Assembly (NCBI RefSeq): GCF_900099695.1
Contig: NZ_FNCY01000013.1
Location: forward strand, 1 to 64,000
Source: Propionivibrio dicarboxylicus
GTDB taxonomy: Bacteria > Pseudomonadota > Gammaproteobacteria > Burkholderiales > Rhodocyclaceae
Direction: 5' to 3'
DNA: 64,000 nucleotides
A program made the position numbers and the translations under genes. Numbering within the stretch: position 1 is the first letter of the stretch; each line of letters starts with the position of its first letter. Positions 28,542 through 43,569 of the stretch are shown in pieces. The notes under the pieces are model-generated. The model saw nothing but the letters and a program-made list of their open reading frames with translations. It searched no databases and had not been told where the DNA came from.

Positions 28542-28635
28542 ATTCTCCAGCGCGCGGTCGGGAACATCCGGCACGCGCCCACGCAAGCATCACCTGCGCA
28601 TTCCCCCTGCCACACAGGGTCTTGCACGACCTGCT

Positions 28636-28650
28636 ATATTTTCATAATAT
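28636..28650 (+). promoter_or_regulatory. arsR operator overlapping the -10 region
   Basis: ATATT-N5-AATAT is a perfect dyad at 28636-28650. A promoter TTGCAC (28622-28627), 17 bases, TAATAT (28645-28650) overlaps it, and the likely arsR ATG is only 8 bases past the -10, so transcription should begin at or beside the start codon. ArsR binding here would block RNA polymerase until As(III) binds. Confidence 0.6.
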
Positions 28651-28657
28651 TGGAACT

Positions 28658-28978
28658 ATGGAAAACAAAACCGCTGTCACCGCCTTGTCCGCCCTCGCCC
28701 AGGAAAGCCGCCTGGCGGTCTTTCGCCTGCTCGTCCAGAACGGTCCGGACGGCCTGAATCCGGGGGTGATCGCCGAACACCTCGACATTCCGCTGCCGAC
28801 GCTGTCGTTTCATCTCAAGACGCTGGCGCAATCGGGCCTCGTCTCGACCGTCCAGGAAGGCCGCTTCATCCGTTACCGGGCCGACATGGCCGCCTTCAAC
28901 CGCCTCACCGATTTCCTCCTCGAAGACTGCTGCGGCGGAGAGCTTCAACGCTGCGCCACCCCCAACACCGACCAATGA
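28658..28978 (+). CDS. arsR: ArsR-type As(III)-responsive repressor
   Basis: A 106-residue SmtB/ArsR winged helix: LSALAQESRLAVFRLL, then GVIAEHLDIPLPTLSFHLK (recognition helix) and a beta wing. Inducer-binding cysteines are C-terminal, C91-C92 and C99 (DCCGGELQRC), as in the Acidithiobacillus/Corynebacterium-type sensors, not the CVC-type in helix 3. I start at the ATG at 28658; an upstream in-frame ATG lies in the promoter. The stop overlaps arsC by four bases. It should repress the whole ars run. Confidence 0.93.
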   Translation: MENKTAVTALSALAQESRLAVFRLLVQNGPDGLNPGVIAEHLDIPLPTLSFHLKTLAQSGLVSTVQEGRFIRYRADMAAFNRLTDFLLEDCCGGELQRCATPNTDQ

Positions 28979-29478
28979 ACCTGAAGCCGCCTTTCAACGC
29001 GCTGGTGCTGTGCACCGGCAATTCGGCCCGCTCGATCCTCGGCGAGTCGCTCTTCAACCACCTGGGCAAAGGCCGCATCCGCGCCTTTTCGGCCGGCAGC
29101 CGGCCTTCGGGCGCGGTCAACCCGGTGGCCATCGAAACGCTGGACAAACACGGCATCCCGCGCCCGGCCGACCTGCGCAGCAAGTCCTGGGACGAATTCG
29201 CCGGCGACGGCGCGCCACGGATCGATTTCATCTTCACCGTCTGCGCCAGCGCTGCCGGCGAAGCCTGCCCCGTCTGGCCGGGCCACCCGGTCACCGCGCA
29301 CTGGGGCATCGACGATCCGGCGCATGTCGAGCCGCTGGCGGCACGCCGCGTCGCCTTCGAAAACGCCTACCAGGCGCTGGAAAAGCGAATCGCCGCCTTC
29401 CTGGCCCTGGACCTTGAACACCTGCCGGCCGAAGCGATTGCGGCGGCCGCCCGATCGATCCATGAGGCCTGCCAATGA
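28975..29478 (+). CDS. arsC: Arsenate reductase, low-molecular-weight phosphatase type
   Basis: A 167-residue cytosolic reductase. The P-loop CTGNSARS (CX5R, residues 13-19) is the arsenate-binding site, and C90 and C98 (TVCASAAGEAC) are the likely resolving cysteines of the thioredoxin-coupled subtype. It reduces As(V) to As(III) for export by the next gene. It overlaps arsR and acr3 by 4 bases each, so translation is coupled. Confidence 0.93.
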   Translation: MNLKPPFNALVLCTGNSARSILGESLFNHLGKGRIRAFSAGSRPSGAVNPVAIETLDKHGIPRPADLRSKSWDEFAGDGAPRIDFIFTVCASAAGEACPVWPGHPVTAHWGIDDPAHVEPLAARRVAFENAYQALEKRIAAFLALDLEHLPAEAIAAAARSIHEACQ

Positions 29479-30548
29479 GCGTCCAGTGTGAAATCTCCGG
29501 CAAGAGCGCAACGCCGGCGCCGATGAGCGTCTTCGAGCGCTTCCTGACCGTCTGGGTCTTTCTCTGCATCATCGCCGGCGTCGTGCTCGGCCAGTGGTTC
29601 CCCACGCTGTTCCAGTCGATCGGCCGGCTGGAAGTCGCCCAGGTGAATCTGCCGGTCGGCATCCTGATCTGGGTCATGATCATCCCGATGCTGGTCAAGG
29701 TCGATTTCGGCGCCCTGCACGAAGTACGACAGCATGGACGCGGCATCGGCGTCACGCTCTTCATCAACTGGCTGGTGAAGCCCTTCTCGATGGCATTCCT
29801 CGGCTGGCTCTTCGTGCGCCAGATCTTCGCCCCCTACCTGCCGCAAGAACAGCTCGACAGCTACATCGCCGGCCTGATCCTGCTCGCCGCGGCGCCCTGC
29901 ACCGCCATGGTCTTCGTCTGGAGCCGCCTGTCCAACGGCGACCCGCTCTTCACGCTGTCGCAAGTCGCACTCAATGACACGATCATGGTCATCGCCTTTG
30001 CGCCGCTGGTCGCCTTCCTGCTCGGCATCTCGGCCATCACGGTGCCCTGGGACACGCTCTTCACCTCGGTCGTGCTCTACATCGTCATTCCGGTGATTCT
30101 CGCCCAGCTCTGGCGGAAGTCGCTGCTCCGGCACGGCCAGGCCGCTTTCGACGCGGCCATGGCGAAGATCGGACCGTGGTCGATCTCGGCGCTCCTGCTC
30201 ACCCTCGTGCTGCTCTTCGCCTTCCAGGGCAGGGCCATCATCGCCCAGCCGCTCGTCATTGCCCTGCTGGCGGTGCCGATCCTGATCCAGGTCTTTTTCA
30301 ACGCCAGCCTGGCGTATTGGCTCAACCGCGTCCTCGGCGAAAAGCATTCGGTGGCCTGCCCCTCGGCCCTGATCGGCGCCTCCAATTTCTTCGAACTGGC
30401 CGTCGCCGCCGCCATCAGCCTGTTCGGTTTCGAGTCGGGCGCGGCACTCGCCACCGTCGTCGGCGTGCTCATCGAAGTGCCGGTCATGCTGCTGGTGGTA
30501 AACGTGGTCAATCGCAGCCGCGCCTGGTACGAACGGCCGACGGCCTGA
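29475..30548 (+). CDS. acr3: Arsenite efflux transporter Acr3
   Basis: A 357-residue inner-membrane protein with about 10 TM helices. The ACR3 signatures are ILIWVMIIPMLVKVDF early, AAPCTAMVFVWSRLSNGDP (catalytic Cys in the broken helix), ALNDTIM, and NFFELAVAAAISLFG late. It exports arsenite using the proton gradient. Being of the BASS-like ACR3 family it is unrelated to ArsB. The gene is separated from arsM by 18 bases with AAGGAG. Confidence 0.95.
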   Translation: MSVQCEISGKSATPAPMSVFERFLTVWVFLCIIAGVVLGQWFPTLFQSIGRLEVAQVNLPVGILIWVMIIPMLVKVDFGALHEVRQHGRGIGVTLFINWLVKPFSMAFLGWLFVRQIFAPYLPQEQLDSYIAGLILLAAAPCTAMVFVWSRLSNGDPLFTLSQVALNDTIMVIAFAPLVAFLLGISAITVPWDTLFTSVVLYIVIPVILAQLWRKSLLRHGQAAFDAAMAKIGPWSISALLLTLVLLFAFQGRAIIAQPLVIALLAVPILIQVFFNASLAYWLNRVLGEKHSVACPSALIGASNFFELAVAAAISLFGFESGAALATVVGVLIEVPVMLLVVNVVNRSRAWYERPTA

Positions 30549-30566: not shown

Positions 30567-31844
30567 ATGAGTGCCGTCCAGCACGACGCGATTCGCCAGA
30601 CCGTGCGCCAACGCTACACGCATATCGCCGAAAACGAAGGCTGCGGCTGCGCGCCCTCCTGCTGCGGCTGCGCGCCCTCCTGCTGCGGCGGCCCGGACAA
30701 CGACTCGGCGGCGACGTCGCAGAGCGTCGGCTACGCGGCGGCCGACACCGCCGCTGTCCCCGACGGCGCCAACATGGGCCTCGGTTGCGGCACGCCGCTG
30801 GCGATCGCCGATCTCAAGCCCGGCGAGACCGTGCTCGACCTCGGCAGCGGCGGCGGTTTCGACTGCTTTCTCGCGGCACGGGAGGTCGGTGCAACGGGCC
30901 ACGTCATCGGCATCGACATGACGCCAGCAATGATCACCAAGGCGCGCGGGAACGCCGAGAAAGGCGGCTACGCAAACGTCGAATTCCGGCTTGGCGAAAT
31001 CGAACACCTGCCGGTCGCCGACGGGTGTGTCGATGTCATTATCTCCAACTGCGTCATCAACCTGTCGCCGCACAAGGCGCAGGTATTCGCCGATGCTTTC
31101 CGCGTCCTGAAACCGGGCGGCCGGCTGGCCGTCTCCGACGTCGTCGCCTTCGCCGACCTGCCCGATGACATCCGCAATGACCCGACCCTGCTGGCGGGCT
31201 GCATGGCCGGCGCGTCTTCGATTGCCGACATCGAGGCAATGCTCGGCGCAGGCGGTTTCGAGCAGATTCGCATCCGTCCGAAAGATGAAAGCAAGTCCTT
31301 CATTCGCGACTGGGCGCCGGACAAGCCCATCACCGATTACGTCGTTTCCGCCACGATCGAAGCAGTCAAACCCGGCGCGTGCACGTGCTGCTGCAGCGAC
31401 ACGGACACACCGACGCTGCGCCAGGCCTCTGCCGACGATCTGGAGGCGATCAGGTCGCTGCTGTCGCGTTGCCAGTTGCCCGGCGAGGATCTCACCGAAG
31501 CGAGCCTGCGCACCTTCAGGGTGCTCGTATCGGGCACGCGAATCGTCGGGGTCTGCGGCATCGAGATCTTCGGCAGCGACGGCCTGCTTCGCTCGCTGGC
31601 GGTCGATCCCGCGCTGCGTGGCCGGAGATTCGGCGAACAGCTGGTCACCGCGTGCGAATCGGCGGCCCAGAACATTGGCATCGAACGGCTGTACCTGCTG
31701 ACGACCACCGCCCGCGACTATTTGCTGCGCCTCGGTTATGCGGACATCGCCCGTGAATCGGCGCCGGAAGGCGTGCGCACCCACCCCCAGTTCCAGGGGC
31801 TGTGCCCCGCCAGCGCGCGCTGCCTGGCCAAGTGGCTCCAATGA
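30567..31844 (+). CDS. arsM: Arsenite methyltransferase ArsM fused to an ArsN2-like GNAT acetyltransferase
   Basis: A 425-residue two-domain protein. Residues about 1-270 are ArsM: SAM motif DLGSGGGFD (91-99) and the three As(III)-binding cysteines C74 (GLGCGTP), C162 (ISNCVINL) and C212 (LAGCMAG). Residues 26-42 contain a tandem duplicated CGCAPSC block. A cysteine-rich linker (ACTCCC, 271-276) leads to a GNAT domain (about 283-425) with SLAVDPALRGRRFGEQL, the acetyl-CoA loop, resembling ArsN2. The first domain should methylate As(III); the second may acetylate an arsenic-derived or other compound. The stop overlaps the following sigma gene (ATGA). Confidence 0.92.
   Translation: MSAVQHDAIRQTVRQRYTHIAENEGCGCAPSCCGCAPSCCGGPDNDSAATSQSVGYAAADTAAVPDGANMGLGCGTPLAIADLKPGETVLDLGSGGGFDCFLAAREVGATGHVIGIDMTPAMITKARGNAEKGGYANVEFRLGEIEHLPVADGCVDVIISNCVINLSPHKAQVFADAFRVLKPGGRLAVSDVVAFADLPDDIRNDPTLLAGCMAGASSIADIEAMLGAGGFEQIRIRPKDESKSFIRDWAPDKPITDYVVSATIEAVKPGACTCCCSDTDTPTLRQASADDLEAIRSLLSRCQLPGEDLTEASLRTFRVLVSGTRIVGVCGIEIFGSDGLLRSLAVDPALRGRRFGEQLVTACESAAQNIGIERLYLLTTTARDYLLRLGYADIARESAPEGVRTHPQFQGLCPASARCLAKWLQ
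30642..30683 (+). repeat. Exact 21-base tandem duplication inside arsM
   Basis: Two identical 21-base units (30642-30662 and 30663-30683), each encoding CGCAPSC, followed by CGG. Zero divergence at silent sites indicates recent slippage or duplication that doubled a cysteine motif near the ArsM N-terminus. Confidence 0.9.
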
Positions 31845-32395
31845 CTCCGGAAGCGCTGCTCCAGCATTACGGCCGCCATCGCGTGAAGCTGGTCGCAGTC
31901 CTGTCCCGCCTGGTGAGACGAGAGGAAGCCGAGGAACTGGCCGACGAGACTTTGACGAAGGCGCTGTCATCGGTCGCAAGCTTCCGGGAAGAAGCGGATG
32001 CCGGCACATGGCTGCACCGTATCGCCGTCAATCTCGCCTATGACTTGCTGCGCCGACAGATGCGTCATCCCGAGGTCTCGCTGGAAGACGGAATCGAGTC
32101 CCTGGAGCATGCCGCCGATGCGGGACAGGCGCCGCAGGAACAACGGGAGATGAGCCAATGCGTGCGGAATCTGCTGACAACGCTGCCGCCCGAGCAGCAC
32201 GAGGCGCTCGTCCATGCCGACATCCATGACCTGACGGCCGCCGAGATCGCGCGGAACACCGGTGTTTCCACGGGAAACGCCAAGATCCGGCTGCATCGTG
32301 CGCGTCGCGCCATGAAAACCCTCCTCGAAACCCACTGCGATCTCGCGGTTGAAGCCGATGGCGTTTGCCGCTGCACACCGAAGGCTGCCGAATGA
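31841..32395 (+). CDS. ECF-type RNA polymerase sigma factor, first copy, Cys-tailed
   Basis: A 184-residue sigma factor. Region 2: RREEAEELADETLTKALSS and TWLHRIAVNLAYDLLRR; region 4: LPPEQHEALVHADIHDLT, then AEIARNTGVSTGNAKIRLHR. After region 4 a tail reads HCDLAVEADGVCRC, ending in three cysteines. No anti-sigma factor is adjacent. It overlaps the arsM fusion by four bases, so it is translated with it. The tail resembles that of other ECF proteins with short C-terminal extensions and may bind thiophilic metalloids; that role is inference. Confidence 0.9.
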   Translation: MTPEALLQHYGRHRVKLVAVLSRLVRREEAEELADETLTKALSSVASFREEADAGTWLHRIAVNLAYDLLRRQMRHPEVSLEDGIESLEHAADAGQAPQEQREMSQCVRNLLTTLPPEQHEALVHADIHDLTAAEIARNTGVSTGNAKIRLHRARRAMKTLLETHCDLAVEADGVCRCTPKAAE

Positions 32396-32515
32396 GACGC
32401 GCGCTGTATCCTTTTGCGTGGCGATTTCGTCCAAGGGAAGTACCTCGCCGGTACAAGCACTGAGAAGCTGTTTGTTCTCGCTCCCCGAACGTGATTGACG
32501 AAAGGAATCACCACA

Positions 32516-32764
32516 ATGTTAGATGAAGCCACCAAAGAACTGATTGCGATTGGCGCATCGGTGACCGCCCATTGCCAGCCCTGCCTCGACTACCACGTTT
32601 CTGCCGCAAGACGGCTGGGTGTCAGGGAGGAAGACATCCGGATTGCCGTCGATGTCGGCAAGCAGGTCGGGCGCGGCGCCGCTTCCGCCATGGACAAGAA
32701 GGTCATCGAAACGCTGGGCAGACCAGCTGAGGCCTGTGCATCGGCGGGTTGCGGCTGTCATTAA
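32516..32764 (+). CDS. AhpD/carboxymuconolactone decarboxylase-like thiol protein
   Basis: An 82-residue all-helical AhpD-fold protein. HCQPCLDYH has the redox CxxC with the following His of alkylhydroperoxidase D-like proteins, and VGRGAASAMDK follows. The C-terminus is unusually Cys-rich (CASAGCGCH). I use the ATG at 32516; an upstream in-frame TTG would place the AAAGGA ribosome site inside the gene. It lies between two sigma genes. A thiol reductase or As(III)-buffering role is plausible; arsenic islands often carry CMD-domain proteins. Confidence 0.82.
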   Translation: MLDEATKELIAIGASVTAHCQPCLDYHVSAARRLGVREEDIRIAVDVGKQVGRGAASAMDKKVIETLGRPAEACASAGCGCH

Positions 32765-32795
32765 CCGGACGCCGGGCCTTGTGACAGAATGGGAT

Positions 32796-33365
32796 ATGGA
32801 CGCAACTTCCGCCTTTACCTGCCTTAATCGGGCCTGGCACACCCACAGGACCGAGATCAGGAGTTTTCTGAGTCGTCGCATTGCCGACAAGGCAGAGACC
32901 GATGATCTCCTGCAGGATGTCTTCCTGAAAGCCCTGCTGCTGGGTCGGTCGTTTTGCACGATCGACAATCCGCGTGCATGGCTGTTTCAAGTGGCCCGCA
33001 ACATGCTGATCGACCGGCTCCGACTCACGCGCGAGCAGGTACCCTTGCCCGACGACCTGCTCGCCGCCACCGAGTCTTCGATGGACACCGTGGATGCGCT
33101 GACCCAGTGCTTGCCGAGAGTCCTGTCGGAATTGACTGCCGAGGATCGCGAAGCCATCGTCCTATGCGACCTCTCTGGCGTCACCCAGCAGGAATTCGCC
33201 GACCGTGCCGGAATCTCCCTGCCGGCGGCGAAATCGAGGGTGCAACGCGCACGGCGTCGCTTGCAGTCACGCATGGTCGATGCCTGCCAGGTCAAATTCG
33301 ACGAACACGGAAAAATCTGCTGCTTCGTTCCGCGACCGCCGCTGGGCGAAACGCCGAAGGTCTGA
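32796..33365 (+). CDS. ECF-type RNA polymerase sigma factor, second copy, Cys-tailed
   Basis: A 189-residue ECF sigma factor: DDLLQDVFLKALL and NPRAWLFQVARNMLIDRLR in region 2, then LTAEDREAIVLCDLSGVTQQEFADRAGISL in pieces through region 4 with AAKSRVQRARRRL as the recognition helix. The tail ACQVKFDEHGKICC resembles the SigZ-type C-terminus and parallels the tail of the upstream sigma factor. Start: ATG at 32796, with a GTG at 32781 as an alternative. No anti-sigma gene is seen on either side. Confidence 0.9.
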   Translation: MDATSAFTCLNRAWHTHRTEIRSFLSRRIADKAETDDLLQDVFLKALLLGRSFCTIDNPRAWLFQVARNMLIDRLRLTREQVPLPDDLLAATESSMDTVDALTQCLPRVLSELTAEDREAIVLCDLSGVTQQEFADRAGISLPAAKSRVQRARRRLQSRMVDACQVKFDEHGKICCFVPRPPLGETPKV

Positions 33366-33469
33366 ACCCCAGCCCCGGCCTGAACGGAGCACTCAATCCG
33401 TTCAGGCTGCATCCTTTTTCCACCTGATTCGTCTACCTCTGCAAACCGACACACTATCCGGAGACTGAA

Positions 33470-34528
33470 ATGCTCACAGATTCGATGACGAATGCCCACA
33501 AGGCGAAGCCCGGCCTCAATGGCTGGCTGGCGATGATTGCCATCGCCACCGGCGCCTGGTTCGCCATCTACAGCCACCTGACCGACTTCGCCGATGCGCT
33601 GATCGGCATGCTGGGACTCAGTCGCGAGACGCGACTCGGCGAGGCGATCCACTTCTTCAGCTATGACACGCCCAAGGTACTGATGCTGCTGGTCGGCGTC
33701 GTCTTCGTCATGGGCATCGTCCAGACCTTCTTTGTCCCGGAGCGCACCCGTGCGCTGCTCTCGGGCAAGCGACTCGGCCTTGGCAACGTGCTGGCGGCGA
33801 CGCTCGGCATCGTCACGCCGTTCTGCTCCTGCTCGGCCGTGCCGCTATTCATCGGCTTCCTGTCGGCCGGCGTCCCGCTCGGCGTGACCTTCTCGTTCCT
33901 GATCTCGGCGCCGATGGTGAACGAAGTCGCGCTGGTGCTGCTGTTCGGGATGTTCGGCTGGAAAGTCGCCGGCCTGTATCTCGGCCTGGGGCTGCTGGTC
34001 GCCATCGTTTCCGGCCTGGTCATCGGCGCGCTCAAGATGGAAAAGCACCTCGAAGACTGGGTGCAGAAGCTACAGTCGGGGGCCGACCTGCCCGCCAGCA
34101 CCTTCTCGATGAGCTGGGTCGAACGCTTCGAAGCCGGTTGGGCGCACGTCAAACAAATCGTCGGCAAGGTCTGGCCCTACATCCTGCTCGGCATCGGACT
34201 CGGCGCGGCCATTCACGGCTATGTCCCCGAAGACCTGATGGCCAGCTTCATGGGACGCGATGTCTGGTGGGCCGTCCCCGCCGCCGTCGTGCTCGGCGTG
34301 CCGATGTACTCCAATGCCGCAGGCATCATTCCCGTAGTCGAGGCGCTGATCGGCAAGGGCGCCGCGCTCGGCACGGTGCTGGCCTTCATGATGGCGGTGA
34401 TCGCGCTCTCGGCGCCCGAGATGATCATCCTGCGCAAGGTCTTGAAGCCGCGCCTGATCGCCGTCTTCGCCGGCGTCGTGGCCACCGGCATCCTGATGGT
34501 GGGTTATGTGTTCAACGCAATTTTCTGA
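33470..34528 (+). CDS. Permease, ArsP/PF03773-type
   Basis: A 352-residue inner-membrane protein with about 8-9 TM helices. TPFCSCSAVPLFIGF contains the cysteine pair typical of the PF03773 permease family, and GVPMYSNAAGIIPV is the mirrored second motif. ArsP members export trivalent organoarsenicals such as methylarsenite and roxarsone. Here it lies downstream of arsM, which makes such products, supporting that role. GGAG is 6 bases before the ATG. Other PF03773 proteins have unknown substrates, so the substrate is inference. Confidence 0.88.
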   Translation: MLTDSMTNAHKAKPGLNGWLAMIAIATGAWFAIYSHLTDFADALIGMLGLSRETRLGEAIHFFSYDTPKVLMLLVGVVFVMGIVQTFFVPERTRALLSGKRLGLGNVLAATLGIVTPFCSCSAVPLFIGFLSAGVPLGVTFSFLISAPMVNEVALVLLFGMFGWKVAGLYLGLGLLVAIVSGLVIGALKMEKHLEDWVQKLQSGADLPASTFSMSWVERFEAGWAHVKQIVGKVWPYILLGIGLGAAIHGYVPEDLMASFMGRDVWWAVPAAVVLGVPMYSNAAGIIPVVEALIGKGAALGTVLAFMMAVIALSAPEMIILRKVLKPRLIAVFAGVVATGILMVGYVFNAIF

Positions 34529-34547: not shown

Positions 34548-35318
34548 ATGTTCAATTCAGTGAGTTTCATCGGTGCCGGGCGAATCGCCCGCATCATGCT
34601 CGGCGGCTGGCAACGTGCCGACGCGCTGCCGTCAAGGATTCTTGTCGTCGACGCCAATCCGGACGCCGTCGCCGCACTGCAGGCGGACTATGCAGAGGTC
34701 ATCGCGGCGACGCTGGACGAGGCCGCTCAGGCCGATCTCGTTTTCGGCGCCTTGCATCCGCCGGCGCTGAACGAGGTGCTTCCGCTGATCGCCGGTGCGC
34801 TCAAGCCGACGGCCGTCTTCTGTTCGCTGGCGCCGAAGATCAAACTGGCGGCCTTGCAGGAGAAGCTTGCCGGTTTCAAGCGCCTGGCGCGAATGAACCC
34901 GAATGCGCCGAGCATTATTGGCGAAGGCTATAACCCGGTTTCCTTCGCACCGGAATTGCCGGGTCCCGCACGCGACGATCTGCTGGCCTTGTTGAAGCCG
35001 CTCGGACAAAGTCCGGAAGTCGATGAGCGGCTGCTCGAAACGTATGCCGTCATCAGCGCCATGGGGCCGACCTATTTCGGCTTCCAGTTTGCCGAAGTCG
35101 AACGGCAGGCGAAGAGCTTCGGCCTGGACGCATCGGCAGCACGCGCGGCCATGCACGCCATGCTGATCGGTACCGTGGACACGCTGTTCGCGAGCGACGT
35201 GCCGAGAGACAAGGCGCTCGACCTGGTTCCGGTCAGGCCGATGGCGGAATATGAACCCGACATCGTCGGCATGCTGCAACGCCAGATCGGCGGAATCCAC
35301 GCCAAACTGAGCAGTTAG
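34548..35318 (+). CDS. Pyrroline-5-carboxylate reductase-like NAD(P)-binding protein
   Basis: A 256-residue ProC-family protein: N-terminal Rossmann FIGAGRIARIMLGGW, then FCSLAPKI, RMNPNAPSIIGEG (normally RxMPNTP) and a helical dimerisation domain with SAMGPTYFGF. It is the right length but several ProC substrate residues differ (NPNAP for MPNTP), so housekeeping proline synthesis is doubtful. It is 19 bases after the permease gene with AAGGAG and 29 bases before the redox protein, so it belongs to the island. Function in arsenic metabolism is unknown. Confidence 0.75.
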   Translation: MFNSVSFIGAGRIARIMLGGWQRADALPSRILVVDANPDAVAALQADYAEVIAATLDEAAQADLVFGALHPPALNEVLPLIAGALKPTAVFCSLAPKIKLAALQEKLAGFKRLARMNPNAPSIIGEGYNPVSFAPELPGPARDDLLALLKPLGQSPEVDERLLETYAVISAMGPTYFGFQFAEVERQAKSFGLDASAARAAMHAMLIGTVDTLFASDVPRDKALDLVPVRPMAEYEPDIVGMLQRQIGGIHAKLSS

Positions 35319-35347: not shown

Positions 35348-35578
35348 ATGAAAGACGTCAAGATTCTCGGCACCGGCTGTGCCAACTGTCGTAACACTTA
35401 CGCCCTCGTCGAGGCCGTCGCCAAGGAGAAAGGCGTTGCCGTCACCCTGGGCAAGGTCGAGGACTTCCCGTCGATCGCCGCTTACGGCGTCATGTCGACG
35501 CCGGGCGTCGTCATCGACGGCGTCGTCGTTCATGCCGGCGGCGTACCGAGCCGGGAAAAAGTGGAGGGCTGGTTCTAG
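35348..35578 (+). CDS. Thioredoxin-like small redox-active disulfide protein
   Basis: A 76-residue thioredoxin-fold protein with active site TGCANCRN (CxxC) near residue 11 and the cis-Pro strand MSTPGVVIDG. It matches the small redox-active disulfide protein family found beside PF03773 permeases. GAGGAG is 10 bases before the ATG. Its last four bases overlap the end of the convergent torD-like gene. It likely donates electrons within the arsenic island. Confidence 0.88.
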   Translation: MKDVKILGTGCANCRNTYALVEAVAKEKGVAVTLGKVEDFPSIAAYGVMSTPGVVIDGVVVHAGGVPSREKVEGWF

Positions 35579-36231
35579 GGCAATACGACGGACGACTGGC
35601 GCGCACGCAGGTCTTCGCCGGCCTTTCGCATGAACGCGGCGGTCATCGCCGCGAGATCGCGATAGAAGCTGCATTGGGCGTTTTGCCGTAACGCGTCGAC
35701 GAAGGCGCCGAGCCAGGCATCGGTATGCCGCGTCTGAAGCGACCATTGCAGCGCCTGCGCGTGCGCTTGCATTTTCGCGTCGCCGTTTTGCCGTGCCGCC
35801 GCTTCCTGGAAGAACAGCGTATAGAGGAACTCCAGCTCGACCGCGAGGTGGTCGGGCAAGTCACGGAAGTCCGGATCGACGACGAAACCGCCATCGTCAT
35901 ACAGTTCGATCAGCGCCTGGACCGAATCCATGGGATCGTCGCTGTTCTTGTCGCGCCAGGCCGATTCATAGGGCGGCGCGAGCGTGTGTCCCGGCCCCAG
36001 AAACAATTTCGCGTAGTCGACGAGCAGGCTGTCGATGCGCTCGCTCTCGAACGACCGCTTGAGCTGCATCGCCTGCGCCGCCAGGGCCGGATCGAGCGAC
36101 TCGGCGGCCATCCGCAAGGCATCGAAAAGCCTTTCCTCAACGAACTCAGGGCCAGGCTCGTAGTAACAGGCCGAGAGAAGACGGCACAGGTCTGCTTTCG
36201 CAACCACGGACTGGAAATCGCTATCTGACAT
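35575..36231 (-). CDS. TorD/DmsD-family molybdoenzyme maturation chaperone
   Basis: A 218-residue all-helical cytosolic chaperone. The N-terminus LCRLLSACYYEPGP and the LAPPYESAW, DLPDHLAVELEFLYTLF segments match the TorD family signature. Such proteins guard the Tat signal and help insert the bis-MGD cofactor of a partner; here that is ArrA, encoded upstream. A strong terminator lies between arrB and this gene, so expression may depend on read-through or a separate promoter. It is commonly called arrD in arr operons. Confidence 0.88.
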   Translation of the reverse strand: MSDSDFQSVVAKADLCRLLSACYYEPGPEFVEERLFDALRMAAESLDPALAAQAMQLKRSFESERIDSLLVDYAKLFLGPGHTLAPPYESAWRDKNSDDPMDSVQALIELYDDGGFVVDPDFRDLPDHLAVELEFLYTLFFQEAAARQNGDAKMQAHAQALQWSLQTRHTDAWLGAFVDALRQNAQCSFYRDLAAMTAAFMRKAGEDLRARQSSVVLP

Positions 36232-36241
36232 TCAGGCCCCC

Positions 36242-36267
36242 AAAAAAAGGGCGAGGAACCCTCGCCC
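36242..36267 (-). terminator. Rho-independent terminator between arrB and the torD-like gene
   Basis: On the minus strand an 8-base-pair stem (GGGCGAGG/CCTCGCCC) with a 3-base loop is followed by seven T residues. It lies 19 bases after the arrB stop and 11 bases before the torD-like start, an ideal intrinsic terminator in the middle of the operon. Confidence 0.85.
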
Positions 36268-36285
36268 AATGATGCATCGCCTGAC

Positions 36286-37062
36286 TTACAGGCGCGGACT
36301 GTACTTCCCGACATAATAGACGCTCGGCCTCGTTCCGGCCTCGGGCTTCAGGACAAAACTCTTCGTCGCCGACAAGCGCTTCGAGACGTTTGAATTGGGA
36401 TCGTCGAGATCACCGAAGATTCTCGCCTCCGCCGGACACGCCTCCACACAGGCCGGCTGCAGCCCGTTCAGGGTACGGTGGGCACAGAAGGTGCATTTTT
36501 CGACGATACGCTGCTTGCGCAGCGGCCCGACGTCTTTCGATTCGAACGCATTCATCGACGGCACCGGCACCCCGGCCTTCTGCGCCGTTTCGACGCCGGA
36601 AGCCGTCACACCGGCCAGCATGGGTGTCGCGTCCTCCCACTTCGGCTGCGTCTTGCCATACCGGTTGTTGTAGCTGATGACGCTATACGCCTCGCCGTTG
36701 AAGCTGGCCGCGCCCAATTCCTCGACACTGTAGGGACAGGCTTCCTGGCATTCCCGGCAGCCGATGCACAGGGACGGATCGTGCATCGTGATGCCTTCGG
36801 GCGTCTTGTACATGGCCTTATTGGGCTTGACCGGACACGCCTCGACGCAGGCCGCATCGGCGCAGTGATTGCACAGGACCGGCATCACCCAATGCGTCGT
36901 GTTCGGGAATTTTCCTTCCGTCCGCATGATGAAATCAGCCCAGTTGAAGCTCTGGCCGTTCTCCTCGTCACGATCCCGCGTATTGTTTTCCGCCTTGCAC
37001 GCCAGGGCGCAGGCACTGCAACCCACGCAACGCTGCAGGTCGATAACCATTCCGAATTTCAT
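36286..37062 (-). CDS. arrB: Arsenate respiratory reductase iron-sulfur subunit
   Basis: A 258-residue ferredoxin-like subunit with four cluster motifs: CVGCSACALAC, CNHCADAACVEAC, CIGCRECQEAC, and CTFC...CVEAC. The start MKFGMVIDLQRC is typical of ArrB/PsrB-type electron-transfer subunits. No signal peptide is present, so it should be carried through Tat with ArrA. It lies 23 bases after arrA. No membrane anchor (arrC) gene is present, so electrons probably come from a c-type quinol dehydrogenase encoded elsewhere. Confidence 0.9.
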   Translation of the reverse strand: MKFGMVIDLQRCVGCSACALACKAENNTRDRDEENGQSFNWADFIMRTEGKFPNTTHWVMPVLCNHCADAACVEACPVKPNKAMYKTPEGITMHDPSLCIGCRECQEACPYSVEELGAASFNGEAYSVISYNNRYGKTQPKWEDATPMLAGVTASGVETAQKAGVPVPSMNAFESKDVGPLRKQRIVEKCTFCAHRTLNGLQPACVEACPAEARIFGDLDDPNSNVSKRLSATKSFVLKPEAGTRPSVYYVGKYSPRL

Positions 37063-37085
37063 ATCGTTCTCCTTCAGCGCGCCGC

Positions 37086-39644
37086 TCAGGCAGCGACTTT
37101 TTCGACACGGACGCCGGTGAATCCGCCGTTGCGCGCGGTAGCGCCGCTCAGCCGGTCGTAGTCATCCACCAGGATTTCGTTGTTGTTTCCGCCGCGAGGC
37201 GCCTTGCCGTAGTCCTTGGCGGCGACGCGACCATACGCCCAGTGCCCCTGTCCATAACACTTGGTGACGGTGCCCGGACGCACGCCCTCCCAGAGCTTGA
37301 GCCGGGTGACGATGCTGCCCGCCGGCGACGTGATCTTGACCCTGTCGCCCGACTTGAGCCCCAGTTTCGCGCCATCCGACGGATGCATCTTCAGCACGTC
37401 GTCCCACGACACATCGCCCGGATCGACCTTCTTGAATTCCTGATACCAGGCAGTGTTGGCCGAGCGCCCCTCGCGGTTGAGCCGCGACTTGTAGTCGATG
37501 AAGTCGAACGGATACTCCGACACGCTGCCATTGCGCTTCGGCGGTTCGTAGTGCGGCACGAAAGCGAGATCGCCGCGCGCCACATAGCCCGAGACGGTGA
37601 GAATGTCATCGACCGTCGTTTCATATTTCTTGGCATGCGCAAGCAAACCCTTCTTGGCCGTCTCGCTGTAGAACTCGAATTTCTTCGTGGCCGTGGCGAA
37701 CTTGCCGCCCCAGCCTTTTTTCAGGCTGTACTTCGGTCCGCTGAACATGCCCTTGGCACGGAAATCATCCCAGCTCTTGATCGGGGCATCGCCCTTCAAC
37801 GGCTCTTTTGGCTTCCAGATTGCCGAACTGCTGATCTTCGTCGTGATGATCGCGAACTCCAGCGCGCTGGTCGCCGTCTTCCCGGTTTCGGGATCCTTGA
37901 ACTCTTTCGAGTAGTAGTCGAAGAGATTCGAAAAGCCCTTCTGCTTGAGCTTCTCGGCGAGCAGCCACATGACTTCGGATTCTTCCTGCTTGACGTCCCA
38001 CAGCCGCTTCACCGCGCCTTGCTGGATCGAGACATAGCCATGGCCATTGCCCATATTGGAGACCACCGACCATCCTTCGGCGGCGTTGAAGGTCGCCGGC
38101 AACACGATATCGGCGAACTGCGTCATTTCCGAGGCATTGGTGACCATGTGGACGAAGAACGGCACCTTGGCCATCACGGCATCCCAGCGCAATGCGCCGG
38201 TCGCCGAGAAATTGAAGTTCGACCACGACGACAGGAAGACCTTGACCGCGCCGGGATCTTTCAAGAGGCCGTTGGCGACATTGTTGGTCACCACGCCGCT
38301 GCCCGGTTGCGCATTCATCATCGCCGGCATGTCTTTGGCGCCCCGGCCGTCGAGTTTCTTGCCCTTGCTGGCGGTTTTCGCCAGATCATCGACGTAGGCG
38401 TCGGCCTTGGGGAAAGCGGTGACCGGCGCACTGCTCGACTGCCAGACGCCGCCTTCGACATCGATCGACCCGAGAATGCCGTTGAGCGCATGAACGGCCA
38501 TTGCCGAATAGGTTCCGCGCGGCGTCATGGCGGCGCCCGGCCCCATCCAGACGGCCGTTTTCGGCGCGGCCTTGCCCATCATTTTCGCCACGCGAACGAT
38601 TTGTTCGGCGGGAATCAACGTTTCCTTTTCCGCCCAGGCCGGCGTGCGATCCTTGAGTTCCAGGTTCCACCACTTGATCAGGCCGAAGGTCTCCTTTTCC
38701 ACGAACTCGTCTTCGCCGACCGTCTGCCCGGCCTTGAAACCGCCCCAGAAGCTCTTGAAGTCGCCGACGAATTCCTTGTTCCACAGTCCCTCGGTCAGCA
38801 GGACGTGGGCGATGGCGCAGGCCAGCGCGCCGTCCGCCCCGGGCTTGATCGGCAACCATTCGTGCGCCTTCGCCGCGACGTTGGACAGGCGCGGATCGAC
38901 CGCAATGACGCTGCCGCGCGCCAGAATCTCATGGAAGTAGTGGATGGTGTTCGGCACCATCCGGTTGGAGGCCAGCGGATCGGTCCCCCAGAGCACCAGG
39001 CACTGGGTCTTCGGCAGATCGTAATCGCGATAGCCGAAGAACCCCTGGGTCAGCCCCGGCCCCATCTTTTCGGCCTCGGCGCACAGCGCGCTGTGCGAGA
39101 AATAGTTGCCCGTGCCGAACACCTTGGGCAGCGTGCCGTAGAGCAATTCCGTGGACGTCGACGAATAGCGGCCGCGCATGTACAGGAGCTTGTGCGTTTC
39201 GTTGGCCCGCCGCAATTCCATCATCTTCTCGGCAACGGTGTCGAGCGCTTCGTCCCAGCTGATCGGAACGAACTTGGGATCGACGCCGCGCCCCTTCTGC
39301 GGATTGGTCCGCTTCATCGGCACCTTGATGCGGTCGGGATCGTAAACCTGCTGGGTGATCAGGTGGCCGCGCGGACAGCAGTACCCGTGATTGGTCTTGG
39401 AAAGCGGATTGCCGCGAACGCGCACGCCGCGACCGTCCTGCACGTAAATCTGGATGGCGCACCACTGCGTACAGCCCTGGCAGGTGCTGGCGATCCACTC
39501 GCCTTTGGCCGGGCTGCCGCCGTTCGACTTGCGCGGGATCAAAGCGGCTGAAGCCGGCTTGACCGGCCCGGTGGAGCATCCGGCGGCCAGCAGCCAGGTC
39601 GTCGCCGCCGAAAGCTGTATGAATGAACGTCGCGTGAGTTTCAT
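37086..39644 (-). CDS. arrA: Arsenate respiratory reductase molybdopterin subunit
   Basis: An 852-residue periplasmic DMSO-reductase-family protein. A Tat signal TRRSFIQLSA begins at residue 4; the 4Fe-4S ligands are C55, C58, C62 and C89/C90; RGRY is at 157-160; SHSALCAEAEK places H184, S185, the Mo-ligand Cys C188 and K193. As I recall from ArrA structural work, RGRY and the H-S-x2-C-x4-K pattern mark arsenate reductases, whereas ArxA has a GRGWG-type motif. The start at 39644 has GGGGAG upstream. The context (ars genes, As-type two-component system) supports arsenate respiration. A related oxyanion reductase cannot be excluded. Confidence 0.88.
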   Translation of the reverse strand: MKLTRRSFIQLSAATTWLLAAGCSTGPVKPASAALIPRKSNGGSPAKGEWIASTCQGCTQWCAIQIYVQDGRGVRVRGNPLSKTNHGYCCPRGHLITQQVYDPDRIKVPMKRTNPQKGRGVDPKFVPISWDEALDTVAEKMMELRRANETHKLLYMRGRYSSTSTELLYGTLPKVFGTGNYFSHSALCAEAEKMGPGLTQGFFGYRDYDLPKTQCLVLWGTDPLASNRMVPNTIHYFHEILARGSVIAVDPRLSNVAAKAHEWLPIKPGADGALACAIAHVLLTEGLWNKEFVGDFKSFWGGFKAGQTVGEDEFVEKETFGLIKWWNLELKDRTPAWAEKETLIPAEQIVRVAKMMGKAAPKTAVWMGPGAAMTPRGTYSAMAVHALNGILGSIDVEGGVWQSSSAPVTAFPKADAYVDDLAKTASKGKKLDGRGAKDMPAMMNAQPGSGVVTNNVANGLLKDPGAVKVFLSSWSNFNFSATGALRWDAVMAKVPFFVHMVTNASEMTQFADIVLPATFNAAEGWSVVSNMGNGHGYVSIQQGAVKRLWDVKQEESEVMWLLAEKLKQKGFSNLFDYYSKEFKDPETGKTATSALEFAIITTKISSSAIWKPKEPLKGDAPIKSWDDFRAKGMFSGPKYSLKKGWGGKFATATKKFEFYSETAKKGLLAHAKKYETTVDDILTVSGYVARGDLAFVPHYEPPKRNGSVSEYPFDFIDYKSRLNREGRSANTAWYQEFKKVDPGDVSWDDVLKMHPSDGAKLGLKSGDRVKITSPAGSIVTRLKLWEGVRPGTVTKCYGQGHWAYGRVAAKDYGKAPRGGNNNEILVDDYDRLSGATARNGGFTGVRVEKVAA

Positions 39645-39688
39645 CTGATCGCTCCCCTTGCTATACATGGTCTTGATGACAAACTCCC

Positions 39689-39704
39689 TGCAAGGAACGG
39701 ACCA
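39689..39704 (-). promoter_or_regulatory. Sigma-54 (-24/-12) promoter of arrA
   Basis: On the minus strand TGGTCCG-TTCC-TTGCA has GG and GC separated by exactly 10 bases, as RpoN requires, and matches the strongest conserved bases (TGG, TTGCA). It lies 45 bases before the arrA ATG. The divergent operon encodes a GAFTGA-type activator and two dyads lie about 165-215 bases upstream, completing a bacterial enhancer arrangement. Confidence 0.75.
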
Positions 39705-39854
39705 CCGACACCGGCGCAACACTCACCCAGCGAAAGAGCCCACCCGGGTTTCCCTAAGCACCTGTTTTTGCGCGATGAATAATTTTTCGCCAAGAATCGC
39801 CACGGCGATCATCACAAAGATCACCCGCTGATCTTCTGTTCGTCGCCGATATTG

Positions 39855-39870
39855 GTTACTATTTGGTAAC
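39855..39870. promoter_or_regulatory. Enhancer dyad 1 of the arr promoter
   Basis: GTTAC-TATTTG-GTAAC, a perfect 5-base inverted repeat with 6-base spacer. Its centre is 34 bases from that of dyad 2, about three helical turns, as expected for cooperative binding of a dimeric NtrC-type activator. Dyads with a 6-base spacer are, as I recall, also described for AioR. Confidence 0.72.
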
Positions 39871-39888
39871 AACAAAACCCTGCATGCC

Positions 39889-39904
39889 GTTACGATCCGG
39901 TAAC
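39889..39904. promoter_or_regulatory. Enhancer dyad 2 of the arr promoter
   Basis: GTTAC-GATCCG-GTAAC, same half-sites and spacing as dyad 1. It lies 32 bases before the start of the binding-protein gene, so binding may also repress or autoregulate that operon. Confidence 0.72.
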
Positions 39905-39936
39905 AGCGCCACAATAAAATTGCCAAGGAGGTCTGA

Positions 39937-40794
39937 ATGGGGCTTGAGCGTTTGTTGCGATTGTGCCTCGCCGTCTGGGTGCTGACGGCCTCGACCATTG
40001 GCATGGGCGCTGAATGGACGCGCCCCATTCGCGTTGGAATGACACCGGCATTCCTGCACGACCAGCACGCGATGCTCGCCGAATGGAAACTCTACCTGCA
40101 GAACGAACTCAAGCGCCCTGTCGTCTTCGTCCAGCGCGACAGCTATCAGGAAACCATGGACCTGATCCACAAGGGGAAACTCGATTTCGCCTGGCTCTGC
40201 GACTACCCCTACATCGCCCTGGGCCGACTGGTGAAGATCCTCGCGGTCGCATCCTACCGGCAACAGCCGATCTATCACTCCTACCTGATCGTTCCGAGTT
40301 CAGATACCCACACCCGTTCGATCCTCGACCTGAAAGGCAAGGTCTTTGCCTACGCCGCCCCCCAGTCGAACACCGGCTATGTCGTCCCGCGCTACCAGTT
40401 GAGAAAGGCCGGCGTCGATGCGAACACATTTTTCCGGAAGACTTTTTTCACCTGGTCGCACAGCAAGGCGATCCGGGCGGTGGCGAGCGGTCTGGCACAG
40501 GGCGCCGCCATCGACAGCTACGTCTGGGACAGCCTGCAGAAAGTCGATCCCAAGCTGGTGGCCAAGACCAGGATCGTCTGGACATCCGAGCCCTTCGGTT
40601 TCCCGCCGATCGTGGCTGACCACGCCGTTTCCAAGGCGGATTTCCAGGCATTTCAAAACGCGCTGTTCCGCATGAAGGACGATCCCGCCGGCCGCGCCCT
40701 GCTTGACAAACTCAACCTCGACGGTTTCGTCGAGGGCACGCCCAGCCTCTACAAAGGGGTGACCGACATGATGCGCGAACTCGGCGATCTCTGA
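39937..40794 (+). CDS. PhnD-like periplasmic oxyanion-binding protein of the arr signalling operon
   Basis: A 285-residue protein with an N-terminal signal peptide (about 1-25) and the phosphate/phosphonate-binding fold: FAWLCDYPYIAL has a single mature cysteine (C88) and later YVWDSL and EPFGFPPIVADHA. It is the start of a three-gene operon with a sensor kinase and a sigma-54 regulator, the same order as aioX-aioS-aioR or arxX-S-R. AioX senses As(III) through a cysteine; here C88 is the candidate, but C88 lies in a motif common to the whole family, so direct As sensing is inference. AAGGAGG precedes the ATG. Confidence 0.85.
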   Translation: MGLERLLRLCLAVWVLTASTIGMGAEWTRPIRVGMTPAFLHDQHAMLAEWKLYLQNELKRPVVFVQRDSYQETMDLIHKGKLDFAWLCDYPYIALGRLVKILAVASYRQQPIYHSYLIVPSSDTHTRSILDLKGKVFAYAAPQSNTGYVVPRYQLRKAGVDANTFFRKTFFTWSHSKAIRAVASGLAQGAAIDSYVWDSLQKVDPKLVAKTRIVWTSEPFGFPPIVADHAVSKADFQAFQNALFRMKDDPAGRALLDKLNLDGFVEGTPSLYKGVTDMMRELGDL

Positions 40795-42216
40795 TGCTGT
40801 TCAACCTCAGCCTGCGCATCAAGCTGCCGCTACTCGGCGCTGCCCTGATCCTGGTCACGGCGCTGGCGCTGTCGACTTCGTTTCTCTATCAAACCTGGGA
40901 GGCGGTGCGCCGCGACACCTTCAAGAACCTCAACGACCTCGGCCAGACAATGTCGAGGGCATTATTCCCGGCCTTGCTGCACGACGATATCTGGCGGGCC
41001 TACGAGACGGTGTCGCTGCCCTTCAAGGACAGCGAATCGGCGCAGGCGGAAAGCCTCATCGTGCTCGATGCGAAGCGGCGGGTCTTTGCCTCCTCGCACC
41101 CGGAAAAGCATCCCGTACTCAGCGAACTCGCCTCGCTCGGCGCCGATTTCGCGACGCTCGACCGCGACATCGCCGCCCATCCCGAGGACCAGATATTGAC
41201 GGTGGAGCGGGACAGCGCGACGCATCTCTTCATTGTCATACCGATCGAGAGCGATACCATCCGGCTCGGCTCGCTGATCGTCTCCTACGACAACGCCTGG
41301 ATCCGGCAGCGCTTCATCGAGTTCATCGAACGCGCCGCCTGGATCACGCTGCTGATCCTCGCCGTGCTGCTGCCGATCAACTGGTATTGGGGCCGGCGCA
41401 TGGTCGCCCCGCTGCAGGAAGTCACCGACCGGCTCAGCCAGATCAGCGGCGGCGAGCCGCCGCCGCTCGATCCCAAGCTCTACCCGTACAACGACGAGGT
41501 CGGTGCGCTCTACCTGGCCTACGGGCAACTCGTCGAAGAGATGAAGGAAAAAATCGTGCTGAAGCGTGAAGTCGTCAAGCACGAGCGCATGGCCGCGGTC
41601 GGCCGGCTGACGGCCAGCATCGCCCACGAGATCAACAACCCGCTCGGCGGCCTGCTCAACGCGGTAAGCACGCTGAAACGCTATGGCTCGGCCGATCCGC
41701 TCAACCAGAAAACGATCAGCCTGCTCGAACGCGGCCTCACGCAGATCAAGGAGACCGTCGCCGCCCTGCTCGTCGAAGCCAAGATCACCAGCCGGCAACT
41801 GACGCCGCACGACCTCGAAGACGTCCGCGTTCTCGTCTCTCCCGGCGCGCATGCGCAAAACACCCGACTGCTCTGGAAAACGGCGCTCTCGGCGGCAGTG
41901 CCGCTGCCCTCGACGCCGATCCGCCAGTTGCTCATCAATCTGACGCTCAACGCCATCCAGGCGGCCGGCAACGACGGCCAGGTCGAGGTCAACCTCCATG
42001 CCGGCGAAACCGAATTGCAGATCGTCGTCGAAAACGATGGCGAGGGCCTCTCGCCGGCAGTGCGCGAGCGGCTGTTCGAGCCTTTCGCCCAGGTCTCCGA
42101 ACATGGCAACGGCCTCGGCCTGTGGGTCTGTTACCAAATCGTAACGCAGCTCGACGGCAGCATCCGGGCCGAATCGGCAGGTCCGCTCACCCGATTCGTC
42201 GTCACCCTACCGCTAA

Positions 42217-42236
<20 letters not shown>
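40794..42236 (+). CDS. Membrane sensor histidine kinase, AioS/NtrB-like
   Basis: A 480-residue kinase with TM helices at about 10-32 and 180-200 enclosing a periplasmic sensor region, a HAMP-like linker, the phospho-acceptor His in SIAHEINNPLGG (near 279), and an ATPase domain with NLTLNAIQAAG and GNGLGLWVC. Its start overlaps the previous stop by one base, and its end overlaps the response regulator by 20 bases. It presumably reads the periplasmic binding protein and phosphorylates the regulator. A GTTAC-N6-GTAAC dyad lies within its 3' end. Confidence 0.92.
42130..42145. promoter_or_regulatory. Third GTTAC-N6-GTAAC dyad, inside the kinase gene
   Basis: GTTAC-CAAATC-GTAAC lies about 85 bases upstream of the response regulator start. 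Ten fixed bases are expected by chance about 0.06 times in a window of this size, so a third copy in the same operon suggests autoregulation of the regulator gene or a remote enhancer. Confidence 0.5.

Positions 42237-43569
<1,333 letters not shown>

Follow-up and report, generated by a model that had tools for sequence, protein, structure and literature searches.

In a stretch of 64,000 nucleotides from Propionivibrio dicarboxylicus (contig NZ_FNCY01000013.1, positions 1 to 64,000; hereafter the window), an arsenic resistance (ars) operon encodes two extracytoplasmic function (ECF) sigma factors, sigma-1 and sigma-2, on either side of a small AhpD-like protein. We consider it probable, at roughly 0.6, that both are dedicated regulators of the ars operon, which would form a two-step ECF cascade behind the repressor ArsR and would sense trivalent arsenicals through their C-terminal cysteine tails. 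The operon runs in the order arsR, arsC-like, acr3, arsM-arsN2 fusion, sigma-1, ahpD-like, sigma-2, arsP, proC-like, arsE (Table 1), and the ATG of sigma-1 overlaps the stop codon of the arsM-arsN2 fusion by 4 nt. An earlier note on this DNA had described two complete ECF sigma genes flanking the ahpD-like gene in an ars island, without an anti-sigma gene, and had proposed that their cysteines might bind As(III) and so control sigma activity directly. Its coordinates and the three cysteine endings were correct on re-reading. Scans of open reading frames (ORFs) and with hidden Markov models (HMMs) agree with the gene content, and no anti-sigma factor was found among the neighbouring genes scanned by HMM. 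Its interpretation as a whole is partly supported. Two of the findings by which it could have been refuted concern sequence, namely unconserved tail cysteines and an arrangement that does not recur, and neither was observed.

Judged by profile scores and tree position, sigma-2 is a member of the already named family SigZ and sigma-1 represents a separate, rare lineage. Both contain the Sigma70_r2 and r4_2 domains. Sigma-2 passes the SigZ model TIGR02959, covering positions 1-168 of its 170 with the tail included. Sigma-1 scores 84.4 bits against that model, below 168.65, and thus falls outside the family; among the best 25 NCBIfam families listed for it there was no equivalog above its cut-off. 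In the tree, 41 SigZ rows group together (100/100), divided into an ars-type subclade of 27 rows (100/99) and 14 canonical rows; L194, which has a canonical tail, is counted among the latter as the tree indicates (L numbers denote loci and G numbers genomes). The seven sigma-1 rows (100/98) lie outside the SigZ clade, a placement biased by the comparison ECFs having been picked as sigma-1 hits. The tree left out 11 Stenotrophomonas near-copies and rows outside 135-215 aa. In the control set, SigZ was present in B. subtilis and Bacteroides ihuae.

The cysteines of the tails, HCDLAVEADGVCRCTPK in sigma-1 and ACQVKFDEHGKICCFVPR in sigma-2, are conserved among relatives. In 38 distinct ars-type SigZ proteins (the broken genes L200 and L202 were dropped from the count), the tail cysteines C164, C175 and C176 are kept in 38, 37 and 34, and C9, C54, C105 and C124 in 36, 37, 38 and 38, respectively. 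Canonical SigZ (n=14) share C105 and C164 in every case and have C9, C54, C124, C175 and C176 in none. Thus the ars-type proteins, besides forming their own clade, differ by three further conserved cysteines (C9, C54, C124) and by a CC pair in the second predicted strand, whereas canonical SigZ carry a second cysteine beside C164 (14/14) and two more near the end (11/14). Sigma-1 proteins have C107, C166 and C178 in 7/7, with a third tail cysteine at 176 (two proteins) or 177 (five). In a joint alignment C107, C166 and C178 fall on C105, C164 and C176 of SigZ, and in 71 other ECFs (sigma-1 hits of 135-215 aa, near-copies included) these columns hold a cysteine in 0, 2 and 0 rows; the C178 column is a gap in 45 of them, that is, they have no such tail. 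From these alignments, cysteine conservation in both sigma groups is more than chance. Because sigma-1 and SigZ stand apart in the tree, the shared cysteine site looks convergent, a point weakened by the choice of comparison rows. In AlphaFold models of both proteins a C-terminal beta-hairpin of low local confidence holds the tail cysteines (E164-168/E174-179, mean predicted local distance difference test (pLDDT) score 73.9; E166-170/E176-180, mean pLDDT 58.5). In-frame stops had raised the possibility of selenocysteine in SigZ, which we rejected: in G026 and G046 the stops fall where the tail ends, and the genes of L200 and L202 seem to be broken.

The matching cysteine positions in two separate ECF groups, mostly missing in the 71 other ECFs, are left unexplained by an alternative that we regard as unlikely and that nevertheless remains serious: ArsR would be the sole arsenic sensor, the sigma factors would be constitutive amplifiers whose amount follows ArsR control, and the cysteines would be structural, for example a zinc site. 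It agrees with the position of sigma-1 in the arsR operon and with five family f54 loci (L185 and L188-L191) in which canonical sigZ is immediately preceded by an ArsR-like gene, checked by HMM in L185. It also agrees with the SigZ of G046, which lost two of the three tail cysteines, C175 and C176, and in whose genome the candidate promoter P2, described below, still stands before arsP. Also in family f54, a GST-like gene follows sigZ in L185 and L188 (by eye).

Two motifs, new here and not seen in the earlier note, may act as promoters: P1 (TGTATCCTTTTGCGTGGCGATTTCGTC), between sigma-1 and ahpD, and P2 (TGCATCCTTTTTCCACCTGATTCGTC), between sigZ and arsP. Both contain CGTC, a usual -10 element of ECF promoters. 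The motif was first noticed in the sigZ flanks of the window and its relatives. Its strict form occurs twice in the window against 0.0 times per dinucleotide shuffle (400 shuffles). A loose form has 20 matches in the whole 4.5 Mb genome (11 for the reversed control), and only P1 and P2 carry the T-run (TTTT). Among 99 relatives, TGYATCCTTT-n10-15-CGTC gave 30 sites in 23 genomes, being found in 18 of the 20 with SigZ and in 5 of the 79 others (Fisher p 2.3e-13, or 8.7e-13 once the window's genome is left out); the reversed pattern was found in 4/20 and 10/79 (p 0.47). Four sites are P1-type (TGTATCC), one each in the window's genome (G000), G012, G017 and G027, and all of them lie between sigma-1 and ahpD. 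The other 26 are P2-type and 19 of them lie directly before arsP or arsE. Four of the remaining seven look like chance matches, in genomes without SigZ (G030, G070, G080, G087); of the others, one is in G058 with no query gene near, one in G056 immediately follows sigZ, and one in G091 is some 1.2 kb away from arsP.

Since the motif was found near sigZ, the fair test is given by the 13 of 30 sites outside the discovery stretches. Eight of these lie directly before arsP or arsE (G013, G015, G017, G021, G027, G028 and two in G046); those of G013, G021 and G027 are not on the contig that carries sigZ, and the two of G046 are more than 1 Mb from it. The other five are the G091 site and those of G030, G070, G080 and G087, the latter four near no ars gene. 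In G015, a 70% complete genome, SigZ was not found. P1 stands before ahpD in seven genomes (the window's and those of L033 and L102-L106), with one change in its first element in L106. In all seven the palindrome GTACC-n5-GGTAC follows 8 nt after P1, with a GTGCC variant in L102; this change would keep the RNA pair.

In a wider sample of 398 Pseudomonadota, TIGR02959 (E 1e-25) matched 39 genomes, 25 of them over the cut-off; at most eight candidates per genome were scored, by which some SigZ may have been missed. The pattern TGCATCYTTTT-n10-12-CGTCT was found in 15 genomes, 10 among the 39 SigZ carriers and 5 among the other 359 (p 5.5e-8); the sample has G000 and G046, at least, in common with the 99 relatives, and the pattern was widened after some of the sample's sites had been seen. 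Reversed, it was found in two genomes, both without SigZ. The 16 sites include six before arsP (one being that of the window), two before arsM, one before a broken arsI-like gene and one just after sigZ before an unidentified gene. By eye, a near-P2 sequence lies between sigZ and arsP in L197, L198, L202, L207 and L208 and before arsI-sigZ in L181 and L182, where both ArsI pass NF041414. In L201 the arsI-like gene downstream of P2 (about 834-1350) is split over two frames and looks broken in the assembly.

The distribution of the two motifs suggests that sigma-1 pairs with P1 and SigZ with P2. Sites of the TGTATCCTTT type occur in four of the 99 genomes, all with sigma-1; the 14 relatives with SigZ and without sigma-1 have no such site, and P2 is present in 12 of them. 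In the genomes of L104 and L105 (completeness not given), the sole match to SigZ is sigma-1 itself, and P1 is present with no strict P2. Taken with the gene order, this pairing points to a cascade from the ArsR operon through sigma-1, P1, ahpD-(arsDA)-sigZ and P2 to arsP-arsE. ArsR-derepressed transcription would make sigma-1, and its holoenzyme would start at P1 to yield AhpD; read-through from there would add SigZ, along with ArsD and ArsA in four relatives. SigZ holoenzyme would in turn start at P2 and drive expression of the arsP permease and arsE thioredoxin genes. In each sigma factor a cysteine constellation would replace the anti-sigma factor: one cysteine at the start of region 4 (C107 in sigma-1, C105 in SigZ) and three in the predicted C-terminal hairpin (C166/C176/C178 or C164/C175/C176). 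This thiol site may bind a trivalent arsenical, As(III) or methylarsenite, and the sigma factor would then be active. The target genes arsP, arsM and arsI suggest a trivalent arsenical as ligand, perhaps methylarsenite made by ArsM; as these genes handle organic arsenicals, As(III) and methylarsenite are equally likely signals.

The arrangement in relatives is consistent with dedicated ars regulators. SigZ (E 1e-20 or better) was found in 20 of the 99 genomes, the window's included, and 8 to 19 kb around sigZ were read in the 19 others; the stretch contains ars genes in 19 of the 20, G091 being the exception. Sigma-1 (E 1e-40) was found in six genomes, all with SigZ, and the ahpD-like gene (E 1e-15) in the same six (chance of the same six 9e-10). 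The earlier note had suggested looking for the sigma-AhpD-sigma arrangement beside ars genes elsewhere. The order sigma-1, ahpD, sigZ holds in five of the six, and the bare form is seen only in the window, with arsD-arsA standing between ahpD and sigZ in four (for L033, HMMs confirmed both ArsD and ArsA). The sixth is G005, where some 4 kb separate sigma-1 from the ahpD-sigZ pair that follows it. The closest SigZ, that of G026 (76%), is encoded directly after arsM-arsN2, and neither sigma-1 nor ahpD was found in that genome at the same thresholds. Across 84,980 species genomes, a scan yielded at least 80 loci. Among those listed, six at 48-55% identity are all in ars operons and have the three-cysteine tail; four of these lie on contigs of relatives that the count above includes (G005, G012, G027, G056). 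In the stretches of the other 74 listed (41% or less), none of arsM, arsN2, acr3, arsC, arsP, arsD, ahpD and arsE was found (E 1e-8), and none of these proteins has two or more cysteines in its last 30 residues.

The AhpD-like protein, the first presumed sigma-1 target, may reset or supply the thiols of sigma-1. It scores above both family models (PF02627 49.8 bits, cut-off 23; TIGR00778 48.1 bits, cut-off 27.8) and thus belongs to AhpD/CMD, and C20 and C23 of its CxxC are invariant in six rows. It also resembles the AhpD-type domain of the ArsM-AhpD fusion selenoproteins (NF041537, E 6e-11) and of the GSU3128 family (E 4e-7), although it is free-standing and far below both cut-offs; by sequence, the likeness to NF041537 is another arsenic link for this domain. 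Its CxxC, its presence among the 99 genomes only with sigma-1 and the ArsE in the presumed SigZ operon would also suit tails that act as redox switches, forming disulfides that the AhpD-like thiol protein and the ArsE thioredoxin reset, with arsenic acting via oxidative stress. This we consider quite improbable, given that a search at E 1e-15 detected no AhpD in those SigZ genomes (14 of 20) that have no sigma-1, where the tails mostly keep their cysteines, and that the target genes identified are arsenic genes.

The proposal that tail thiols gate the sigma factors comes by analogy from CorE and OrbS. According to excerpts of the published work, CorE and CorE2 of Myxococcus xanthus are ECFs without a linked anti-sigma factor, with a Cys-rich C terminus and linker cysteines, which are activated in a metal-dependent manner and control metal-resistance genes (PMC8999054, PMC3107203, PMC9023288); formerly ECF44, they are now placed with ECF238. 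Their cysteines follow C-x4-C-x2-C-x-C (CorE) and CC-x3-C-x2-C-x-C (CorE2) with a CXC linker, as given in part of PMC9023288. Neither tail described here has these patterns, sigma-1 having C-x9-C-x-C and SigZ C-x10-CC, with a single conserved cysteine near region 4 (C107 or C105) in place of CXC, and the presumed ligand here is an arsenical. In OrbS of Burkholderia cenocepacia, a C-terminal cysteine metal sensor gates binding to core polymerase (excerpt of PMC9023288); OrbS is inhibited by Fe(II) through C-x2-C-x3-C-x5-C, whereas here the pattern is another and activation would be expected. Copper, cadmium/zinc and iron are the metals that the same excerpt reports as sensed directly by a sigma factor. 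ArsR/SmtB proteins, one of which is encoded here, give arsenic-responsive control of ars genes as repressors releasing DNA and not as polymerase subunits.

Another thiophilic metal (Cu, Zn, Sb), exported by the PF03773 permease, might be the ligand. The permeases of the window and of L189 score against the SO_0444 Cu/Zn efflux model, below its cut-off, and responses to Cu, Cd and Zn have been described for CorE and CorE2 (PMC8999054, in part). We think this very improbable, with P2 standing before arsM and arsI-like genes elsewhere and the relatives' loci being ars islands. In the open-licence literature we found no arsenic-responsive sigma factor of this kind; it may have been described elsewhere. 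The earlier note, which knew of no described factors of this kind, has to be corrected in that sigma-2 belongs to the named SigZ and that Cys-tailed metal-sensing ECFs (CorE, CorE2, OrbS) are known. Arsenic is not mentioned in excerpts of the ECF reviews PMC8999054 and PMC8103513, nor in those of the OrbS and CorE papers PMC9023288 and PMC3107203. Likewise, sigma factors are not mentioned in excerpts of the arsenic resistance gene review PMC6205960, an excerpt of PMC7019866 names no arsenic-linked sigma factor, and the portion seen of a plasmid transcriptome (PMC6286996) gives an ars gene list with no sigma gene beside it. Sigma-E was down-regulated early in arsenite-exposed Herminiimonas arsenicoxydans (excerpt of PMC3022917). 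ArsP, as reported for Campylobacter jejuni, exports trivalent organoarsenicals and not arsenite (PMC6205960, in part).

Several observations weigh against a cascade of arsenical-sensing sigma factors, besides the G046 case given above. The predicted hairpins are of low confidence and C176 is replaced in 4/38 ars-type SigZ. For six of the 15 ars-type SigZ of the 398-genome sample (L195, L199, L203, L204, L205, L209), no ars gene turned up within 1.5 kb. In that sample the association falls to 4/28 versus 5/359 (p 0.002) when previously seen genomes are left out and to 5/39 versus 4/359 (p 0.0007) with the unwidened pattern; 6 of the 16 sites are near no ars gene of the query set, and 29 of the 39 SigZ genomes have no exact motif match. 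Among the relatives, G009 and G038 have SigZ and no motif, the G044 site lies between arsP and arsE, and one G056 site stands after sigZ before another gene. P1 of L104 and L105 lacks the T-run, G005 has sigma-1 and ahpD with no P1 in the two stretches read, and in the vibrio-like loci L189-L191 there is no P2 between arsR and the permease. In addition, ArsR alone could give the arsenic response, the sigma-promoter pairing comes from sequence comparison, and arsenical binding is presumed from the target genes.

Two of these groups deserve a description of their own. In L203 and L209 (family f72) the ars-type sigZ lies beside a Crp-like regulator (by eye), and at another place in their genomes (G361 and G260) P2 does precede arsP; in G361 this site shares a contig with sigZ. 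In L189-L191 the ArsP-like permease is divergent and without P2; with an ArsR-like gene before canonical sigZ, family f54 thus shows another control scheme.

SigZ is also spread on plasmids. Of 72,556 plasmid records, 1356 had a SigZ match; Klebsiella accounts for 1049 of these, and 1138 are predicted conjugative. Six plasmid regions were read: a gene named permease lies within 6 kb in 6/6 and annotated ars genes in 5/6 (the gene table is incomplete), the cysteine tail is kept in all five SigZ translated (L047-L051), and P2 follows sigZ in exact form in L047, L051 and L052 and in an altered form, by eye, in L048, L049 and L050. On the Sulfuricella plasmid pSCD (L047, 6019-12149) sigZ and the exact P2 precede a TolC/RND efflux operon and not a permease, a possible further SigZ target. 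Among the same records sigma-1 had no match at E 1e-15 and AhpD matched one at E 1e-6. When SigZ was sought in viral contigs, 83 stretches matched a pattern and none proved a relative. The K. pneumoniae sigZ DNA (L051) was found in 1 of 5426 E. coli genomes (near mode). A tentative extension, to which we give somewhat less than an even chance, is that SigZ would be a one-component (methyl)arsenical sensor for arsP, arsM and arsI, that sigma-1 would have converged on the same four-thiol site and been placed before SigZ, and that a SigZ-permease-thioredoxin module would travel on enterobacterial plasmids, mostly predicted conjugative.

Table 1. Features of the ars operon and its candidate control elements (positions in the window).
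Feature	Positions	Strand	Evidence
arsR, ArsR/SmtB-family repressor, first gene of the operon	28622..28978	+	NCBIfam NF033788 above cut-off; TTG-started ORF, true start unsure
arsC-like, low-molecular-weight phosphatase type	28975..29478	+	PF01451 above cut-off; nearest NCBIfam models are arsenate reductases, below cut-offs
acr3 arsenite efflux transporter	29475..30548	+	TIGR00832 above cut-off
arsM-arsN2 fusion (arsenite methyltransferase and ArsN2 acetyltransferase)	30567..31844	+	NF008823, NF040501 above cut-offs
sigma-1, ECF sigma factor, separate lineage, 184 aa	31841..32395	+	PF04542, PF08281; clade 100/98
sigma-1 C-terminal Cys tail, residues 166-178, C-x9-C-x-C	32336..32374	+	sequence, conservation
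P1, ECF-type promoter motif TGTATCC-n16-CGTC between sigma-1 and ahpD; presumed sigma-1 target	32405..32431	+	
palindrome GTACC-n5-GGTAC, 8 nt past the CGTC of P1; possible operator or 5' untranslated region hairpin	32440..32454	+	
AhpD/CMD-family small protein, 82 aa, CxxC-x3-H, ends CASAGCGCH	32516..32764	+	TIGR00778, PF02627 above cut-off
sigma-2, SigZ (ars-type), ECF sigma factor, 189 aa	32796..33365	+	TIGR02959 182.8 bits, cut-off 168.65
SigZ C-terminal Cys tail, residues 164-176, C-x10-CC	33285..33323	+	sequence, conservation
P2, ECF-type promoter motif TGCATCCTTTT-n11-CGTC between sigZ and arsP; presumed SigZ target	33408..33433	+	
arsP-type permease, presumably SigZ-dependent	33470..34528	+	PF03773 246.9 bits (cut-off 32.3)
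proC-like pyrroline-5-carboxylate reductase homologue, probably in P2 operon	34548..35318	+	TIGR00112 94.2 bits, below cut-off
arsE-type thioredoxin-like protein, probably in P2 operon	35348..35578	+	TIGR00412 MTH895/ArsE above cut-off

Some features of the island and of related loci should be added. For the arsP-type permease, the nearest NCBIfam models are SaoE and SO_0444, both below cut-off, and an organoarsenical substrate is putative; in L034 (4384-5436) a second, more distant ArsP-like permease without P2 lies beside sigZ, with the same two models as best matches below cut-off. The proC-like gene comes next after arsP not only in the window but also in G005, G012, G017 and G027, all of them sigma-1 genomes; it would place a proline-type reductase in the presumed SigZ operon. 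The N-terminus of ArsM, in the gene fused to arsN2, contains a Cys-rich stretch in duplicate (30567-30760, CGCAPSC CGCAPSC). Beyond arsE (35578-43566) there is an arsenic respiration or oxidation island, with a molybdopterin oxidoreductase, an FeS subunit and a TorD-like chaperone on the minus strand, then a PhnD-like binding protein, a histidine kinase and an NtrC-type regulator. ArrA is the nearest model for the catalytic subunit (1022.6 bits, below the cut-off of 1600), which we presume may be an ArxA.

Arsenic control in bacteria is usually described as repression by ArsR. In this sense, the pair of sigma factors suggests that some bacteria have a second layer of control, which perhaps senses arsenic itself. 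If this is true, a dedicated sigma layer would explain the staging of efflux, methylation and organoarsenical export, SigZ would gain a signal and a regulon, and a metalloid would join the metals that are sensed directly by a sigma factor. P1 and P2 make the sigma idea directly testable, and promoters as short as these could serve arsenic biosensors.

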